Positions 53,864-60,750 of a DNA stretch of 64,000 bases are shown piece by piece. The DNA comes from Selenomonas sp. AE3005. Its GTDB lineage: Bacteria > Bacillota > Negativicutes > Selenomonadales > Selenomonadaceae. The notes under the pieces were generated by a model, which did no database searches, was not told where the DNA came from, and worked only from the letters and a program-made list of their open reading frames with translations. Position 1 is the first letter of the stretch. Every line of letters begins with the position of its first letter. Location: assembly GCF_000686945.1 (NCBI RefSeq), contig NZ_JMME01000002.1, positions 1-64,000 on the forward strand. Direction: 5' to 3'. Position numbers and translations under genes: made by a program.

Positions 53864-54064
53864 CTTGTCAATTGCCTATACGCTATGGGCAGCAGGCAGG
53901 AGGTTCATGATGTTTGTCGAACTTGTAAGGAAATAGATAAATCAAGCATAAGTAAACGGAGGTCACTATATGAATGGGGCGGGGATTGGCCAGACCGTAA
54001 GGACTATCAGCATTTTGAAATATCGACAGCCATAACGGAAATTCTATATCCGAATAATAAATAA
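53864..54064 (+). pseudogene. C-terminal fragment of an M15-type D-Ala peptidase
   Basis: This frame is open from a TGA at 53861 to TAA 54064 but has no proper gene beginning. Its last ~35 codons read 'SLYEWGGDWPDRKDYQHFE' and 'ISTAITEILYPNNK', which fits the C-terminus of M15 D-Ala-D-Ala carboxypeptidase/endolysin proteins, where W-G-G-D-W-x(5)-D-x-x-H-F carries the last zinc histidine. The part before it overlaps the 59-bp duplicated sequence. I take it as the tail of a deleted gene. A 21-codon reading frame with a GGAGG site lies in another frame at 53970-54035. The gap 53759-54120 holds nothing else recognisable. Confidence 0.5.
53892..53950. repeat. 59-bp direct repeat, copy 1
   Basis: It matches 55069-55127 in the same orientation with 53 of 59 bases identical, beginning GCAGGCAGGA and ending AGCATA. 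The two copies flank the PheC-like gene. Confidence 0.85.
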
Positions 54065-54120: not shown

Positions 54121-54915
54121 ATGCAAAGAAAGATTTTACCAGTTGGCCTGATAGGTCTGCTGCTGATGGCAGTGCTGATGCTGCCTGTGATACGTGCGGA
54201 GGCTGGGCATCTTGAGGATATTTCTGCCAGAGGTGTGATTCGGATTGGTACCACCGGAGATTACATTCCCATGTCATACTTAAACCCGCAAACCGGAGAA
54301 TACGAAGGAATTGATGCTGAGCTGTCACAGCTTATTGCCGATTCCCTGGGGGTAAAAATCCAGTATGTGCCAACTACATGGCCGACGCTTGCCGCTGATA
54401 TGCAGGCCGGGAAATTTGACATTGCCCTTTGCGGCATTTCGCGCAATTATAACCGGGCAAGAACCATGGCTATGTCGGATGCCTATGGGGAAGGACTTTT
54501 TGGCAAGACCATACTCTGCCGTGCCAAGGATGCAAAACGTTTCCAAAGCCTGGCAGATATTGACAGACCGGAAGTGCGTGTGATGATAAATCCGGGCGGT
54601 ACAAATGAAAAGTTTGCCCGGGCAAATCTCAAACAAGCTAAGATTATCGTCTATAATGACAATGCGGATATCCCTCGTCAAATTGCAGAGGGTAAGGCAG
54701 ATATCATGATTACAGAAACGGTAGAGGCTGCTCACTATGTTCGCATGGACAAGCGGCTGGCCGCACCTCTAAAGGATAGTCCATTTACCCGTCATTCCTG
54801 TGGCATTCTGATGAAAAAAGGCGATCAGGAATGGCTGAATTACATCAATTTTGTACTGGCAGAACTGAAGATGGACGGCACTCTGGGGAAATTGGAAAAA
54901 AAGTATCTGAAATAG
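54121..54915 (+). CDS. Secreted PheC-like cyclohexadienyl dehydratase / family 3 solute-binding protein
   Basis: This 264-residue protein has a signal peptide (1-~26, 'RAEA') and the periplasmic-binding-protein family 3 fold: 'RGVIRIGTTGDYIPMSYLN', 'YEGIDAELSQLIADSLGV', 'GKFDIALCGIS'. The region 'MINPGGTNEKFARANLKQAK' and 'IAEGKADIMITETVEA' is strikingly like PheC, the periplasmic cyclohexadienyl dehydratase that makes phenylpyruvate or phenylalanine from prephenate or arogenate, including the T-x-x-x-E-A stretch with its catalytic Glu. No ABC permease or ATPase is adjacent, which fits an enzyme or a stand-alone sensor ligand-binding protein better than a transporter subunit. GGGGGAG precedes the ATG. 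Its terminator appears broken. Confidence 0.8.
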   Translation: MQRKILPVGLIGLLLMAVLMLPVIRAEAGHLEDISARGVIRIGTTGDYIPMSYLNPQTGEYEGIDAELSQLIADSLGVKIQYVPTTWPTLAADMQAGKFDIALCGISRNYNRARTMAMSDAYGEGLFGKTILCRAKDAKRFQSLADIDRPEVRVMINPGGTNEKFARANLKQAKIIVYNDNADIPRQIAEGKADIMITETVEAAHYVRMDKRLAAPLKDSPFTRHSCGILMKKGDQEWLNYINFVLAELKMDGTLGKLEKKYLK

Positions 54916-55068: not shown

Positions 55069-55127
55069 GCAGGCAGGATGTTCACGATGTTTGTCGAATT
55101 TGTAAAGAAATAGATAAATTTAGCATA
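55069..55127. repeat. 59-bp direct repeat, copy 2
   Basis: Matches 53892-53950 at 53 of 59 positions. After the repeat the two sequences diverge completely. Confidence 0.85.
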
Positions 55128-55222
55128 TTCCTTTATAGAAGGGGCAGATGATATGGCAAGTGAGGTTGTACATAACCATGCACCAATCACTCGATGAACT
55201 TTGAGTTCAACAGACTGGGAGT

Positions 55223-55441
55223 GTGGGGACAAAAGGGGGGGAGGAGGCTCTGCTTCGTTGCCAACAGCATTTTGGTCAGGATTATCAATTTACTTTCCAG
55301 ATTCAAAAGTGGTTTGGAGTACTTAAAGGCATTGTCGGTGAGTTAAATAAGCTGATTGTTAAGATGATGGACATCAGGGATTGTGAACTCATTGACATTG
55401 CAAGCGAGATAGGGAAACGAGGGACATCGTTAAAGGAGTAG
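55223..55441 (+). CDS. Doubtful small ORF or gene fragment before the SpoIIE gene
   Basis: A 72-codon frame starts at GTG 55223 and is open from 55205. It reads partly helical, e.g. 'QKWFGVLKGIVGELNKLIV' and 'CELIDIASEIGKRG'. No ribosome site fits the GTG; a GGAGGAGG at about 55239-55246 is inside the frame and not followed by an in-frame start at proper distance. I do not recognise it. It ends 8 bp before the SpoIIE gene. It may be a small coupled gene or the tail of a lost one. Confidence 0.35.
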   Translation: MGTKGGEEALLRCQQHFGQDYQFTFQIQKWFGVLKGIVGELNKLIVKMMDIRDCELIDIASEIGKRGTSLKE

Positions 55442-55449
55442 TTTAAGGT

Positions 55450-57669
55450 ATGGGCGATTACTGGCGGATGGTACGGAAAATATTGCGCAGACGGCTGAGC
55501 ATCAGGGGCCGGTTACTGCTGCTCCTGCTTATAAGCAGCTTGTTGTCGGCCCTGGTGTTTGCAGGCTTGTCCTTTTATGGCGTTACTTTCGTGCAAAAAG
55601 ATATAGCAGATTTTGGGGGGCAGCTTTCGCAGGAGGGAGCTGCATACACCCAGGAATATATAAATAAAACCAGTAAGGAGACGATAGCAGACTTAGCCAG
55701 GTCGAAAGCTAACTTTATTGACTATGAGTTGGCACATATGGAGCATGATGTGACCATTTTAGCAGATGCTTTGACTTGGATACATAAGCACCCGTCCAAT
55801 TATTTGCCAGCTGCTGTTCTTGACCCGTATAATGGGAAAGTTCCGCCGGCTGCGCCCTGTATTATTTATAGTCCTGAGGTGCGAAAACGTGGGATTGAAA
55901 CGGTACGGCAAGAAGTTGAGCTGGCTGCCAATATAACGGGTACGATGGTGCCGATGGAAAAAAACTATGATTATTTTAGTTATTCCGCAACCTATTTTGG
56001 TAGTAAATCCGGGTTTTTAATTTGCAGCAGCGTCTTTGTTGGGGATAAGTACAGTCCGATATCTGATGACCCGGCTTTTAGTTATGACCCTTGTGTCCGC
56101 CCGTGGTATCAAAATGCCATCAAGGCCAATAGGGCGGTATTTTCTTTGCCTTATCTCACAATTTTGACGGCGGAACATAGTGACGTTGAAGTTATAAGCT
56201 GCTCAGCGCCATATTATGACGCTGAGGGAATTGCCGGCGTAGCAAGTCTTGATATAGCGACTAAAGAGCTGCGTCAATATATTACGAATACGGCCATTGG
56301 TGATAAGGGCATTAACTTTATCATGAACAATGATGGCAAGGTCATTTTTTCACCGGTACACGAGGGCGTGCTGGCCGAGACAGATAAACAGCAGGATTTA
56401 CGGAAAAGTGAGTCGGCGGAGTTTGCCAGGGCAGCTTATTATATGACTAACGGCGAAAGTGGTGTATTGCCTGTTGAGCTGTATGGCGAAAAATACATGC
56501 TGGCGTTTGCGCCACTCCCTACGATGAAATGGAGTCTGGGGATTCTGGTGTCACAGGACGAACTTTCATCTTCCCTGCAGGAAAGCCATAACTATTTCAT
56601 GGGGCAGATGGAATCATTCAGTGATAATTTGCAGCGTGAGTCGATTTTATTATTGCAGATGGCTGTGTTGGCGTTTTTTATCATGGTGGTTATTATGATA
56701 TTTACGTCGAAGGCGCTTTCTGACCGGTTTGTAAAGCCGATAAAGCAAATGGCTGATGGCGTGCGTGAAATTGCCAGTGGCAATCTTGACAAGAAACTTG
56801 ATATAACTACCGGCGACGAAATCGAACATTTAGCCATATGCTTTAATTCTATGACTGATGAGCTGAAAGCCTATATTGATAACTTGTCTAAGGCAACAGC
56901 TGAGAGGGAAAAGGCGGCAGCGGAGCTTTCGGTGGCCCGTAATATTCAGCTGGGCGCATTGCCGCAGGATTTTTTGACCGCTTACCAGGAATTTCAAATA
57001 AATGCGGCCATGGATGCAGCCAAAGGGGTAGGCGGAGATTTTTATGATTTTTATATGACGGATGAAAATCATCTGGTTATAACGATTGCTGACGTGTCAG
57101 GGAAAGGGATTCCGGCAGCCCTTTATATGATGCGCGCCAAAACTACGTTAAAGAATATGGTCTTAAGGGCGAAAAATGCTGCTGATTTTGCCGATTGTAT
57201 GAAGATGGCGAATCGAGAACTTTGCCGGGAAAATGAAGAAATGATGTTTGTGACGGCGTTTATGGCCAGGCTGGATTTAACAACAGGAGAATTGGTTTAT
57301 GTAAATGGCGGTCATAATCCACCGCTGGTGCATGCGGATGGCAAGTTCTGTTATTTGCAGCAGGCCAGAAAACATATGATGCTGGGCATAAACGAGGACG
57401 AAATATATGAGGCGCATAGTTTGGTTATGCAGCCGGGGGATATTATTTTCCTGTATACAGATGGCGTGACAGAGGCTATGAATGAGGCCGAAGAACTATA
57501 TTCCGAAGAGCGTTTGCAGGCAACATTAAATAGGCAGACGTCAAAAGATGTAAAGGAAATACTCGCAGCTGTTCGTCAGGATGTTAATACCTATGCGGGG
57601 GACGCGGAGCAATCCGATGACATAACCATGCTGGGGCTGAAATTTTGTGGCAGCTTGGCTGATGTGTAG
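55450..57669 (+). CDS. Membrane receptor phosphatase: dCache-HAMP-SpoIIE (PP2C)
   Basis: This 739-residue protein has a basic N-terminus, a membrane helix (~21-45), an extracytoplasmic double-Cache domain (~50-390), a second helix (~396-420), a HAMP linker (~420-475) and a C-terminal SpoIIE-type PP2C phosphatase (~490-735). The sensor shows the residues of the amino-acid-binding dCache signature: Y212, R217-x-W219-Y220, Y235 and D268. The phosphatase retains all metal Asp motifs: 'GVGGDFYDF', 'IADVSGKGIPAALY', 'VNGGHNPP', 'LYTDGVTEAMNEA' and 'EQSDDITML'. PP2C phosphatases of this type dephosphorylate STAS-domain anti-anti-sigma factors or related Ser/Thr phosphoproteins. No STAS gene is adjacent. 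The symporter fusion follows directly. Confidence 0.92.
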   Translation: MGDYWRMVRKILRRRLSIRGRLLLLLLISSLLSALVFAGLSFYGVTFVQKDIADFGGQLSQEGAAYTQEYINKTSKETIADLARSKANFIDYELAHMEHDVTILADALTWIHKHPSNYLPAAVLDPYNGKVPPAAPCIIYSPEVRKRGIETVRQEVELAANITGTMVPMEKNYDYFSYSATYFGSKSGFLICSSVFVGDKYSPISDDPAFSYDPCVRPWYQNAIKANRAVFSLPYLTILTAEHSDVEVISCSAPYYDAEGIAGVASLDIATKELRQYITNTAIGDKGINFIMNNDGKVIFSPVHEGVLAETDKQQDLRKSESAEFARAAYYMTNGESGVLPVELYGEKYMLAFAPLPTMKWSLGILVSQDELSSSLQESHNYFMGQMESFSDNLQRESILLLQMAVLAFFIMVVIMIFTSKALSDRFVKPIKQMADGVREIASGNLDKKLDITTGDEIEHLAICFNSMTDELKAYIDNLSKATAEREKAAAELSVARNIQLGALPQDFLTAYQEFQINAAMDAAKGVGGDFYDFYMTDENHLVITIADVSGKGIPAALYMMRAKTTLKNMVLRAKNAADFADCMKMANRELCRENEEMMFVTAFMARLDLTTGELVYVNGGHNPPLVHADGKFCYLQQARKHMMLGINEDEIYEAHSLVMQPGDIIFLYTDGVTEAMNEAEELYSEERLQATLNRQTSKDVKEILAAVRQDVNTYAGDAEQSDDITMLGLKFCGSLADV

Positions 57670-57776
57670 AACTGCTTAGTAAAAGAGTTCCATGCATGGA
57701 GTGCCACCGTTATGGACATCACCCTTCAAATCTCAGCGTGAATATGCAGCCTACAATATATGGAGAAGATAAATAT

Positions 57777-59393
57777 ATGCGAACACCAATATATACTGTT
57801 TCTGAAGAAAATTATCACCAAATAGTAGAGTGGCTAGAAAAAACTTTTTCCGAACTGGGACTATCCCGAGAAGAAATATATAATGGCGAATTATTGCTAG
57901 AGGAGAATTTCTTTCACTTTGCCACAGCTTCTGGTGATGAAAATAAATTTCAAGCAAAAGTAGAGGTTACAAAGCACTTTGGTGAGGTCAGCCTTCGACT
58001 GATTGCCCCAGGAAAAGCCTATAATCCACTCAACGACATAGAGGAAATTCCAGACGATGAGCAAAAACAATACAGCTTGGGTATATTAAAAGCGCATAAG
58101 GATGACATAAGTTATGCACGAAAAAATGATGTAAATATTATTTCTATCCGTGTACATCGTTCAGGCAATAAAATTGCCATTTATACACTTATTGGCCTTG
58201 TGGTGGGCCTCGTTGTAGGGATAGGAGCTAAAAGTGTACTTGCTCCGGATATACTTATATGGTTGGTTGACAACATATTTGATACGATTGAAAAATTGTT
58301 CATGAGTGCGTTGATGATGGTCATAGCACCATTGGTTTTTTTCTCGGTTATCGAGGGCATAACGAGTATGTCGGATGCAGCAGATATCGGGCGTATGGGT
58401 GGAAAACTTATACTTTTATCTATTGTTAAATTATCTGTAATTCTGGTCATGTCAATGGGATTAGGCTTTTGGTTAGGCGCTATGCCGGACCTTATTTCAA
58501 TGCTGAATGAGGAAAGCAATTCCGCGGTAATCATGTCTTTAAAGGACGTAATGATAAGCATTGTTCCACCCAATATTATTGCTCCTTTTTTTAACAATAA
58601 TCTTCTACAAGTACTGTTCCTAGCTTGCTTTTTGGGCTTTATTTTAGCTAAGTCAGGTGACAGAGGGCTGCCTGTTCGCGAGGTAATCGTATTTGGTAAG
58701 CGCTTTGCTATGGATGCTGTGAGGGCAATTATGCCGGCTATGCCTATTGTAGTTGCAGCTTCTATGGCAAAAATGATGATAATTGTCGATATTTCGGTCT
58801 TTTGGCCGTTTAGCAAAATTGTCATTTCTGCGTTTATCGAATTTTTAATAATCATTTTGAGCGAAGCCGTTTTTTTGGCAATTATTGGTAGGGTTTCGCC
58901 GTTGCCGTTTGTAAAAAAATTTCTTAGCTTTAGTGTTTTACCATTTTCTGTCCGCAGTTCGAATGTATGTTTGCCTGCTACGCTGGAATATTGTTCCGAT
59001 AAGCTGGGTATTGATGAAAAATTAGCACTTTTTTCTGTTCCTATCGGCATTCAATTTAATATGCTAGGAGGCTGTGCTTATGTAACAGCTATTGCTATTT
59101 TATTACGGGTAACAATAGGGTTGCCATTTGATTTTGAATTTTTAATCACCTTCTTCTTTGCAGCGCTTATGATGTCGTTTACTTTTCCTAGCGTACCAGG
59201 TGCAACGGTTATTGTTATGACTTCAATTTTTGGTATGGCTGGAGTGCCAACAGCAGCAGTTACCTTATTTTTTGGCATTGACCCTTTGGTAGATGGCATT
59301 AGAACAGTAAGTAATATGGTCGGAAATTTATCCTCATCATTTCTTTTGGCACGATTGGAAGGAAAGCTGGATAAACATATTTATTATGAATAA
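57777..59393 (+). CDS. Fusion of RsbW-like ATPase-fold domain and dicarboxylate/amino acid:cation symporter
   Basis: This 538-residue protein has two parts. Residues ~1-128 resemble the GHKL fold of RsbW/SpoIIAB anti-sigma kinases: 'GELLLEENFFHFA' at the N-box position, 'LRLIAPGKAYNPL' at the D-x-G position and 'YSLGILKAHKDDISYARKNDVNIISI' in place of G-G-L-G-I...D-x-x-S-Y. The usual Asn, Asp and double Gly are replaced, so ATP catalysis is doubtful. Residues ~133-538 form a DAACS (GltP/DctA-like) transporter with HP1 'VRSSNVCLPATLEYC', 'PIGIQFNMLGG' in place of N-M-D-G-T, and 'DPLVDGIRTVSNMVGN' keeping D506, R509, T510 and N513, the acidic-substrate site. Its codons are visibly more A/T-rich than the neighbours. 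ATG 57777 follows GGAG by 11 bases. Confidence 0.85.
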   Translation: MRTPIYTVSEENYHQIVEWLEKTFSELGLSREEIYNGELLLEENFFHFATASGDENKFQAKVEVTKHFGEVSLRLIAPGKAYNPLNDIEEIPDDEQKQYSLGILKAHKDDISYARKNDVNIISIRVHRSGNKIAIYTLIGLVVGLVVGIGAKSVLAPDILIWLVDNIFDTIEKLFMSALMMVIAPLVFFSVIEGITSMSDAADIGRMGGKLILLSIVKLSVILVMSMGLGFWLGAMPDLISMLNEESNSAVIMSLKDVMISIVPPNIIAPFFNNNLLQVLFLACFLGFILAKSGDRGLPVREVIVFGKRFAMDAVRAIMPAMPIVVAASMAKMMIIVDISVFWPFSKIVISAFIEFLIIILSEAVFLAIIGRVSPLPFVKKFLSFSVLPFSVRSSNVCLPATLEYCSDKLGIDEKLALFSVPIGIQFNMLGGCAYVTAIAILLRVTIGLPFDFEFLITFFFAALMMSFTFPSVPGATVIVMTSIFGMAGVPTAAVTLFFGIDPLVDGIRTVSNMVGNLSSSFLLARLEGKLDKHIYYE

Positions 59394-59468
59394 TAATGTA
59401 ACTGTGAAATAATGCGTTGAATATCCCTAGCGAATAATCACCGTGGTTACGGATTTATTCAATCCTTC

Positions 59469-59575
59469 GTGGAGGAAATTCTTGCAGAAGAGCGAAAAAG
59501 ATATAGATGTTCATGCAGAAGGTGCAGAGCAATCCGATGACCTTACCATGCTGGGGGTGAGATTCCTGGGCAAAA
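59469..59575 (+). pseudogene. Frameshifted remnant of a second SpoIIE phosphatase C-terminus
   Basis: One frame reads 'VEEILAEE' (from 59469) and the next frame continues 'KDIDVHAEGAEQSDDLTML' and 'GVRF'. This parallels 'VKEILAAVRQDVNTYAGDAEQSDDITMLGLKF' of the intact phosphatase (given by its landmarks V-K-E-I-L-A and E-Q-S-D-D-I-T-M-L). A one-frame shift separates the two parts, and no upstream phosphatase sequence remains. It lies right after the symporter fusion. Confidence 0.8.
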
Positions 59576-59625
59576 TTAGGTTGGAACAAGCAATAAGCTT
59601 GGAGTTAGGAAGGTTGGGGAGTAGA

Positions 59626-60750
59626 ATGACATTGAAGATGAAACTGGCAGCCGGTGTGTTTTGCGCGCTGGCTTGCATGCCTATGGTGGCGGAAACTGCC
59701 CCAAAATCGGATACTATGCACCGGTGGGAAGTGACTTCCAAGGACACAGGCGGCACCCTGCTGTTTTCCGATAGCCCGGAGTATGTGGACAGACCGGGGA
59801 TCCTTTATCAGGACACCGTGAATGGCGAGGTGAGGGTGCTTTTCTATCATCTGAACAACACCAAGGTGCCCCAGAAAGTGGCAGTGGTGCTGGAAAATGC
59901 CAACTCCGAGGAGCAGTACAACATAGTACAAGTGACCCGTGGCGGTACAGCCAAGCCCAGCGAATACTATCTTTGGGTGGGCAAGAATACACAGCGCCAG
60001 TATTTTGGTGAAAAAGAGCTAGATCTCGTTTTGTTGTTGAAGAATAGGAAGCGCCTGCTGCAGTCCGGCATGGATGAAATTATCCTGCAGCCTGGAGAAC
60101 TGGTGTATGGAGTCTACGATTTCAAAGTGGATCATCCTGTGAAGACCTCCGTCATCATGTATCCTGCCAAGGCGGACCCTGTGGAGTTCATTGAAAAGGC
60201 CAAAGTGCTGCCCAGGGACTCCGTGGCCCTTCGTGGTACTTATAAGGGCATGGACAGGGTGATTACCTCTGAGCGGGAATATGACCCGGAACGGGATGGC
60301 ATTGTCTACATCATGCTGGCGGATAATAAATTAGACAAATACAAGGCAGGGGTGGATGCCACCGATGGGAGCCAGACGATGAATTGTGGCAATTATGGTG
60401 TGCTCTATAAGATTGCTATACCTGTCAAAAAAGGGGCTCCCAAGGTACAGTACTACTTGTCACCTTTAGGTGGCGTCTATGCCGGCATTATGACTGTGCG
60501 CCGGGGGCGCAGTCAACATACGAAACTGATTGAGACGCCAGAAGGCCCCGGCTATTTTGGGGATCAGACTGCCCCGGAACCGGAGAGTGTATCCAAAGCT
60601 CGTGAAGAGGGGACAGCCCTTTTTGGCAACAACATGGAGCTGGCTGATTTAGGCTGTTATGACAACTCTGTACCCAACTACTTCGAATTCTCCCCACCGG
60701 GGGCTTCGAATCTTCCTGCCTGCCTGATACTCATGCCGGCCGGTGAATGA
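59626..60750 (+). CDS. Secreted protein of unknown function, 374 residues
   Basis: I do not recognise this protein. It has a signal peptide (1-~23, 'MPMVAETA') and a long strand-rich body: 'GILYQDTVNGEVRVLFYHLNN', 'QKVAVVLENANSEEQYNIVQ', 'GELVYGVYDFKVDHPVKTSVIMYPA', 'GVLYKIAIPV', ending 'NYFEFSPPGASNLPACLILMPAG'. No catalytic motif or membrane anchor is visible. GGGGAG is 5 bases before the ATG at 59626; the frame is open further upstream but that part is the SpoIIE remnant. The sequence suggests an all-beta exported protein, possibly carbohydrate- or wall-associated given the NamZ-like gene downstream. Confidence 0.7.
   Translation: MTLKMKLAAGVFCALACMPMVAETAPKSDTMHRWEVTSKDTGGTLLFSDSPEYVDRPGILYQDTVNGEVRVLFYHLNNTKVPQKVAVVLENANSEEQYNIVQVTRGGTAKPSEYYLWVGKNTQRQYFGEKELDLVLLLKNRKRLLQSGMDEIILQPGELVYGVYDFKVDHPVKTSVIMYPAKADPVEFIEKAKVLPRDSVALRGTYKGMDRVITSEREYDPERDGIVYIMLADNKLDKYKAGVDATDGSQTMNCGNYGVLYKIAIPVKKGAPKVQYYLSPLGGVYAGIMTVRRGRSQHTKLIETPEGPGYFGDQTAPEPESVSKAREEGTALFGNNMELADLGCYDNSVPNYFEFSPPGASNLPACLILMPAGE

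Follow-up and report, generated by a model that had tools for sequence, protein, structure and literature searches.

A gene on the forward strand at positions 57777–59393 of the window (the whole 64,000-nucleotide stretch of Selenomonas sp. AE3005 DNA that was analysed) encodes a 538-amino-acid protein in which a degenerate RsbW/SpoIIAB-like domain is followed by a DAACS (SDF, SLC1) symporter. We consider it probable that this protein is a nutrient symporter whose catalytically dead RsbW/SpoIIAB-type domain lets a STAS (RsbV/SpoIIAA-like) switch protein dock, with transport as the output of the switch.

The fusion gene and its symporter half

The reading frame is open from position 57696, its likely start is the ATG at 57777, and its stop codon occupies positions 59391–59393. 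A Shine-Dalgarno-like GGAGAAG, read from the sequence, lies on the same strand at 57762–57768, 8 nt before the ATG. Promoter and terminator scans returned matches at chance level. The frame is uninterrupted and holds both parts that an earlier sequence-only reading had recognized, a domain of some 128 residues at the N-terminus and a complete DAACS transporter: the N-terminal GHKL pseudokinase domain, as we class it below, corresponds to 57777–58172 (forward strand; residues 1–132), and the SDF transporter domain to 58182–59354 (forward strand; residues 136–526). Both halves are under purifying selection, with dN/dS well below 1 for the N-terminal domain and the transporter alike in 8/8 pairs.

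The fusion is not confined to this strain but is shared by rumen Selenomonas and related bacteria. An intact copy with 99 per cent identity is found in a single-contig genome of the same genus (G010), about 85 diverged copies are known besides, and dozens of frames of ~540 amino acids occur across the class, so that the search for the same fusion in other Negativicutes, which the sequence-only reading had proposed, found it present. The window's own genome (G000, 2.8 Mb) carries two fused paralogues, one at C3:207228 (38 per cent identity over the whole length) and one at C2:73881 (25 per cent identity over residues 13–509). Matches to a profile of the N-terminal domain were found in 133 of the 381 genomes of the class, a count that is an upper bound for the fusion because the weakest matches include genuine RsbW kinases. 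Nearly all strong matches are frames of ~540 amino acids that belong to the window's own family or to a second family (f15), and the rest of the phylum has distant fusions as well (G512, G395, and G620). The closest named record in a single-sequence scan is a mere fragment in Selenomonas ruminantium ATCC 12561; plasmid records yielded ordinary SDF proteins, and one record spans most of the query at 26 per cent identity.

The symporter half is complete. Its match to the SDF family (PF00375) covers model positions 4–386 of 387 (229.7 bits against a cut-off of 27.9; E = 7.8e-68), and a structural model of the full-length fusion (pLDDT 82) consists of the N-terminal domain followed by a transporter that matches GltTk and GltPh. 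The window's SDF domain is about 24 per cent identical to GltPh over about 400 residues, and among NCBIfam families only DctA/GltP were named for the protein, far below cut-off. The window protein has the equivalents of the substrate-site residues Arg397 and Asp394, the SS of HP1, and the VPG of HP2, all of which vary across the fused family; the Arg397-equivalent, for example, is kept in 37/89 fused proteins. Because sodium-site and substrate residues differ between fused subfamilies, transport by some members may be unlike that by GltPh. At the position of Asp405, the window protein has Asn, which is one signature of proton-coupled members, M311L being another (PMC12668577); the M311L signature is absent from the window protein. 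Judged by its retained Arg397- and Asp394-equivalents and by this Asn, the window symporter probably takes an acidic substrate, and its coupling may be to an ion other than sodium.

A degenerate anti-sigma domain

The N-terminal domain is predicted with confidence to have a GHKL anti-sigma fold of the RsbW/SpoIIAB type, as the sequence-only reading had proposed. The Pfam model HATPase_c_2 reaches residues 10–125 below its curated cut-off (17.2 vs 27.4 bits; E = 0.005), and sequence searches of the PDB with the domain, including one with a profile of 16 N-terminal domains, recovered no GHKL protein; among PDB comparisons, only that of folds did so. Specifically, an AlphaFold2 model of the domain with 16 family members as input (pLDDT 91, pTM 0.84) was matched best by Foldseek to SpoIIAB in its complex with SpoIIAA (1tid; E = 1e-4, TM 0.70), followed by RsbW of the RsbV/RsbW complex (6m37), a SigF anti-sigma factor (8jzt), and SiaB (6kko). 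Additionally, hhalign aligned the domain with two genuine RsbW-type kinases of the window's genome over 115 columns (97.6 per cent probability; E = 4e-12), and a profile search of this genome with the domain picks up its genuine RsbW kinases (E = 7e-10 and 6e-8). Going by the known topology of SLC1 proteins, we take the N-terminus of the fusion to be cytoplasmic.

The ATP site of the domain is lost. The genuine kinases of this genome have the motifs EEIFVN, D-x-G-x-P-Y-[DN]-P, and GG-x-GIFLVKK, and their counterparts in the window protein are EENFFH (N-box), APGKAYNPL (the remnant of G1), and KQYSLGILKA, in which the G2 glycines are gone; the window protein thus has His at the position of the N-box Asn and Ala at that of the G1 Asp. 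We counted motifs over 89 fused frames, 87 of which were scored for the N-box and 88 for G1. The N-box Asn is present in 0/87 fused domains (68 have Arg and 12 have Gln) and the G1 Asp in 0/88, compared to 6/6 for each residue in genuine kinases of the same genome group. Most of the G2 glycines are also missing from the fused domains. The G1 glycine (85/88), the [YF]NP loop, and the catalytic-base Glu of the N-box (its second E; 74/87) are retained. On these motifs, the fused domain is best called a pseudokinase, catalytically degenerate, and the conserved Arg at the position of the N-box Asn is more suggestive of a specific function than of decay.

The sequence-only reading had envisaged a phospho-switch or ligand-binding module placed directly on an uptake protein. 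The fused GHKL fold on which that idea relied is there, but an active kinase on the transporter is unlikely because the fold has been kept and the ATP-binding residues have not, and we reject the active-kinase reading on the N-box and G1 counts. A docking or receiver function suits the fused domain better, and the phosphorylation chemistry would reside in the products of neighbouring genes: a SpoIIE phosphatase, a STAS protein, and also a genuine RsbW in certain genomes.

Switch genes near the fusions

In four relatives, a complete partner-switching set of SpoIIE PP2C, STAS, and RsbW accompanies the fusion in a one-strand operon with the order STAS, genuine RsbW, one or two fusions, and dCache-HAMP-SpoIIE (L039, L047, L060, and L191). 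A shorter order of STAS, fusion, and SpoIIE is found at four other loci (L058, L059, L061, and L177). The operon-encoded kinases are true HATPase_c_2 proteins (57–59 bits for the two tested), and the phosphorylatable Ser of the YISSAGLR-type motif is kept in 29/29 STAS ORFs of these loci. By gene order, the transporter of the full operons appears to occupy the place expected of a sigma factor gene. Of the 65 fusions that have at least 4 kb of flank on either side, 24 have a STAS, SpoIIE, or RsbW gene no more than 5 kb away on their own strand, compared to 0 of 20 unfused SDF genes in related genomes (Fisher P-value = 0.001, with the near-duplicate L037 left out, in a sample that is not independent by descent). 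The other 41 of the 65 fusions have no such gene nearby, and their partner would therefore need to be encoded elsewhere. At one locus, the SpoIIE and pseudokinase-symporter genes have between them a gene for an APH-type phosphotransferase with a fused STAS domain (L052 8281–9540; Pfam APH, E = 1.8e-17), and a STAS match at L174 7662–9341 has a similar position.

Within the window, the phosphatase is the only switch gene that is intact next to the fusion. This dCache-HAMP-SpoIIE membrane PP2C phosphatase (55450–57669, forward strand; 739 amino acids) ends 107 bp upstream of the fusion, matches the Pfam models SpoIIE (E = 9.5e-51), dCache_1 (E = 1.5e-16), and HAMP (E = 2.4e-11), and is presumed to be the input of the switch. 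The STAS gene of the operon survives as a remnant at about 55153–55204 (forward strand) with an internal deletion of ~280 bp, and is intact in G010 (L037 4535–4867). Directly before the phosphatase gene, what is left of another, divergent pseudokinase-SDF fusion gene of the L004/L057 type (55240–55443, forward strand) has two internal deletions. After the fusion, ORF 59443–60750 has at its start the remains of a SpoIIE C-terminus (59513–59564, forward strand). The remnants on both sides of the phosphatase and fusion genes (55153–55443 and 59513–59564) are signs of recent duplication and rearrangement. Further upstream, 54121–54915 (forward strand) encodes a solute-binding protein of the polar amino acid type (SBP_bac_3), whose gene lies downstream of the fusion in G010 (L037 9961–10788). 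A 59-bp direct repeat (90 per cent) at 53892–53950 and 55069–55127, upstream of the solute-binding protein gene and of the STAS remnant, also precedes STAS in L037 and L058 and is possibly a shared regulatory element.

An intact STAS gene and a second fusion are located about 16 kb away, at C2:73.4–75.4 kb. The genome as a whole encodes two genuine RsbW kinases and gives four STAS matches and six SpoIIE matches, at least four of the latter in long frames (730–760 amino acids), so that parts of a switch are available in trans; the two kinases are encoded on C1 and C8, unlinked to the fusion. A scan with sigma factor models, which covered this genome only, gave six Sigma70_r2 matches, none of them near the fusions, and an ECF-length sigma factor is encoded near another SpoIIE/STAS pair (C2:285800). 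Elsewhere in the genome, L071 1471–2889 (C1, about 270 kb) encodes a genuine RsbW, a STAS protein, and a 208-amino-acid protein resembling another degenerate GHKL; this partner switch, near which no sigma factor was seen, follows a gene whose sequence has condensation-domain-like and cNMP-binding-like parts. A 530-amino-acid condensation-like protein with an N-terminal STAS domain is encoded at L087 1483–3075 (C4, about 159 kb).

The same kind of degenerate domain is attached to an unrelated class of transport protein. In relatives, amino-acid-type ABC ATPases of 360–386 amino acids carry a degenerate RsbW-like domain at their C-terminus, in which the G1 Asp is also lost (L161 3996–5120, L162 11760–12920, L188 9858–10976, L202 7309–8415, and L230–L249). 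These ATPase-pseudokinase fusions are widespread in the class: a profile of the ABC-attached domain matched 147 of the 381 class genomes, a count that includes other GHKL proteins, its strongest matches are frames of ~370 amino acids, and the ABC part is present in 20/20 loci retrieved with it. At L188, the ABC fusion gene is clustered with genes for SpoIIE, STAS, and the SDF fusion, all of them in the same direction. Amino-acid ABC permease genes directly adjoin ATPase-pseudokinase fusions at L135 2–775, L124 2586–3284, and L139 2616–3299; apart from the extra domain, these loci resemble ordinary uptake operons.

A probable partner switch acting on transport

Partner switching is known mainly for freeing sigma factors, and a diguanylate cyclase is one of a few other outputs. 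In the mechanism that we favour, the dCache sensor of the SpoIIE phosphatase would read an extracellular nutrient, and the phosphatase would dephosphorylate the phosphorylated STAS protein, opposing a genuine RsbW kinase, whose gene some relatives have within the operon and this strain has at another site in its genome. The unphosphorylated STAS protein would then dock on the cytoplasmic pseudokinase domain and open or close the symporter. The transporter would thereby take the place that a sigma factor has in the classical switch, and control would be post-translational. The least certain elements are the sign of the effect (activation or inhibition), the ligand, and the kinase acting in this strain, in which only a remnant is left of the local STAS gene and the intact STAS gene and second fusion lie ~16 kb off. 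Separate precedents exist for a STAS protein that binds and supports an ABC ATPase (MlaB and MlaF; PMC7367683) and for partner switching with a non-sigma output (SiaABCD; PMC7647112, PMC8457831). The wider proposal, to which we give even chances, is of a general architecture in which pseudo-anti-sigma domains sit on unrelated transporters (SLC1 symporters and amino-acid ABC ATPases), such that one STAS/RsbW/SpoIIE switch would set several uptake systems post-translationally according to an extracellular nutrient.

RsbW and SpoIIAB are dimers. The pseudokinase might accordingly heterodimerize with a genuine RsbW, or else titrate STAS, and the transporter would be a membrane-bound sensor (a transceptor) that feeds its transport state to a downstream switch without itself being regulated. 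The replacement of substrate-site residues in some subfamilies would be expected if some members act as sensors instead of transporters. However, no sigma factor was seen in the operons (the sigma-model scan being that of G000), so this arrangement has no obvious output, and the window protein retains both its Arg397- and Asp394-equivalents; we regard it as unlikely. Slightly less likely still is that the GHKL domain is active, or binds a ligand, and controls the symporter in cis by sensing a nucleotide or metabolite. Such a role would fit the conserved fold, catalytic-base Glu, G1 glycine, and [YF]NP loop, but every scored member has lost the N-box Asn and G1 Asp, and most have lost the G2 glycines, all of which kinases of the same group keep, and the operons also encode a separate, genuine RsbW. 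The many copies without linked switch genes would suit a vestigial or structural appendage that contributes to membrane targeting or stability and has no part in a switch; this is improbable given the purifying selection on the domain, its constant spacing, the association with STAS, RsbW, and SpoIIE genes, and the independent attachment to ABC ATPases. That two separate genes were joined through a sequencing or assembly error, one of the two outcomes named by the sequence-only reading as refuting it, is practically excluded by the 99 per cent identical fusion in a single-contig genome and the diverged copies in dozens of others. The other such outcome, the lack of a structural match between the N-terminal domain and the GHKL fold, did not occur either.

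The sequence-only reading knew of no RsbW-like domain on a GltP/DctA-type symporter, and our literature search, which covered part of the freely accessible papers, likewise retrieved none that describes an SLC1 or ABC transporter with an RsbW-type domain. If the docking mechanism is true, the use of the RsbW half as a fixed receiver would extend partner switching to direct and fast control of nutrient uptake. It would mirror the long-known STAS domain on SLC26 proteins and offer a concrete test of STAS action on transporters, and, since ABC ATPases bear such a domain too, the idea is a general one that can be tested on small soluble domains.

Among known systems, the RsbU-RsbV-RsbW-SigB and SpoIIE-SpoIIAA-SpoIIAB-SigF switches of Bacillus share with these loci a SpoIIE-type PP2C, a STAS protein with a conserved Ser, an RsbW-type kinase, and a compact operon, but their target is a sigma factor, whereas here the gene in the target position encodes a pseudokinase-symporter fusion. 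SiaABCD of Pseudomonas aeruginosa likewise combines a membrane PP2C, a kinase, and the STAS-like SiaC with a non-sigma output, and the window's phosphatase resembles SiaA (E = 6.7e-31, below cut-off); SiaC, however, binds its diguanylate cyclase output directly, and that target has no GHKL domain. In MlaFEDB, a STAS protein controls a transporter through its cytoplasmic part, as is proposed here, but MlaB sits on the ABC ATPase directly, without an RsbW-like receiver domain, and phosphoregulation in that system is unproven. GltPh, GltTk, and DctA-type DAACS proteins have the same complete SDF domain, from which the window protein differs by its N-terminal pseudokinase and by altered sodium-site residues, including the Asn at the Asp405 position. 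Finally, SulP/SLC26 proteins with a C-terminal STAS domain also have a domain of a partner-switching module fused to an anion or carboxylate transporter; there it is the STAS half that is fused, whereas here it is the RsbW half, on the unrelated SLC1 fold.
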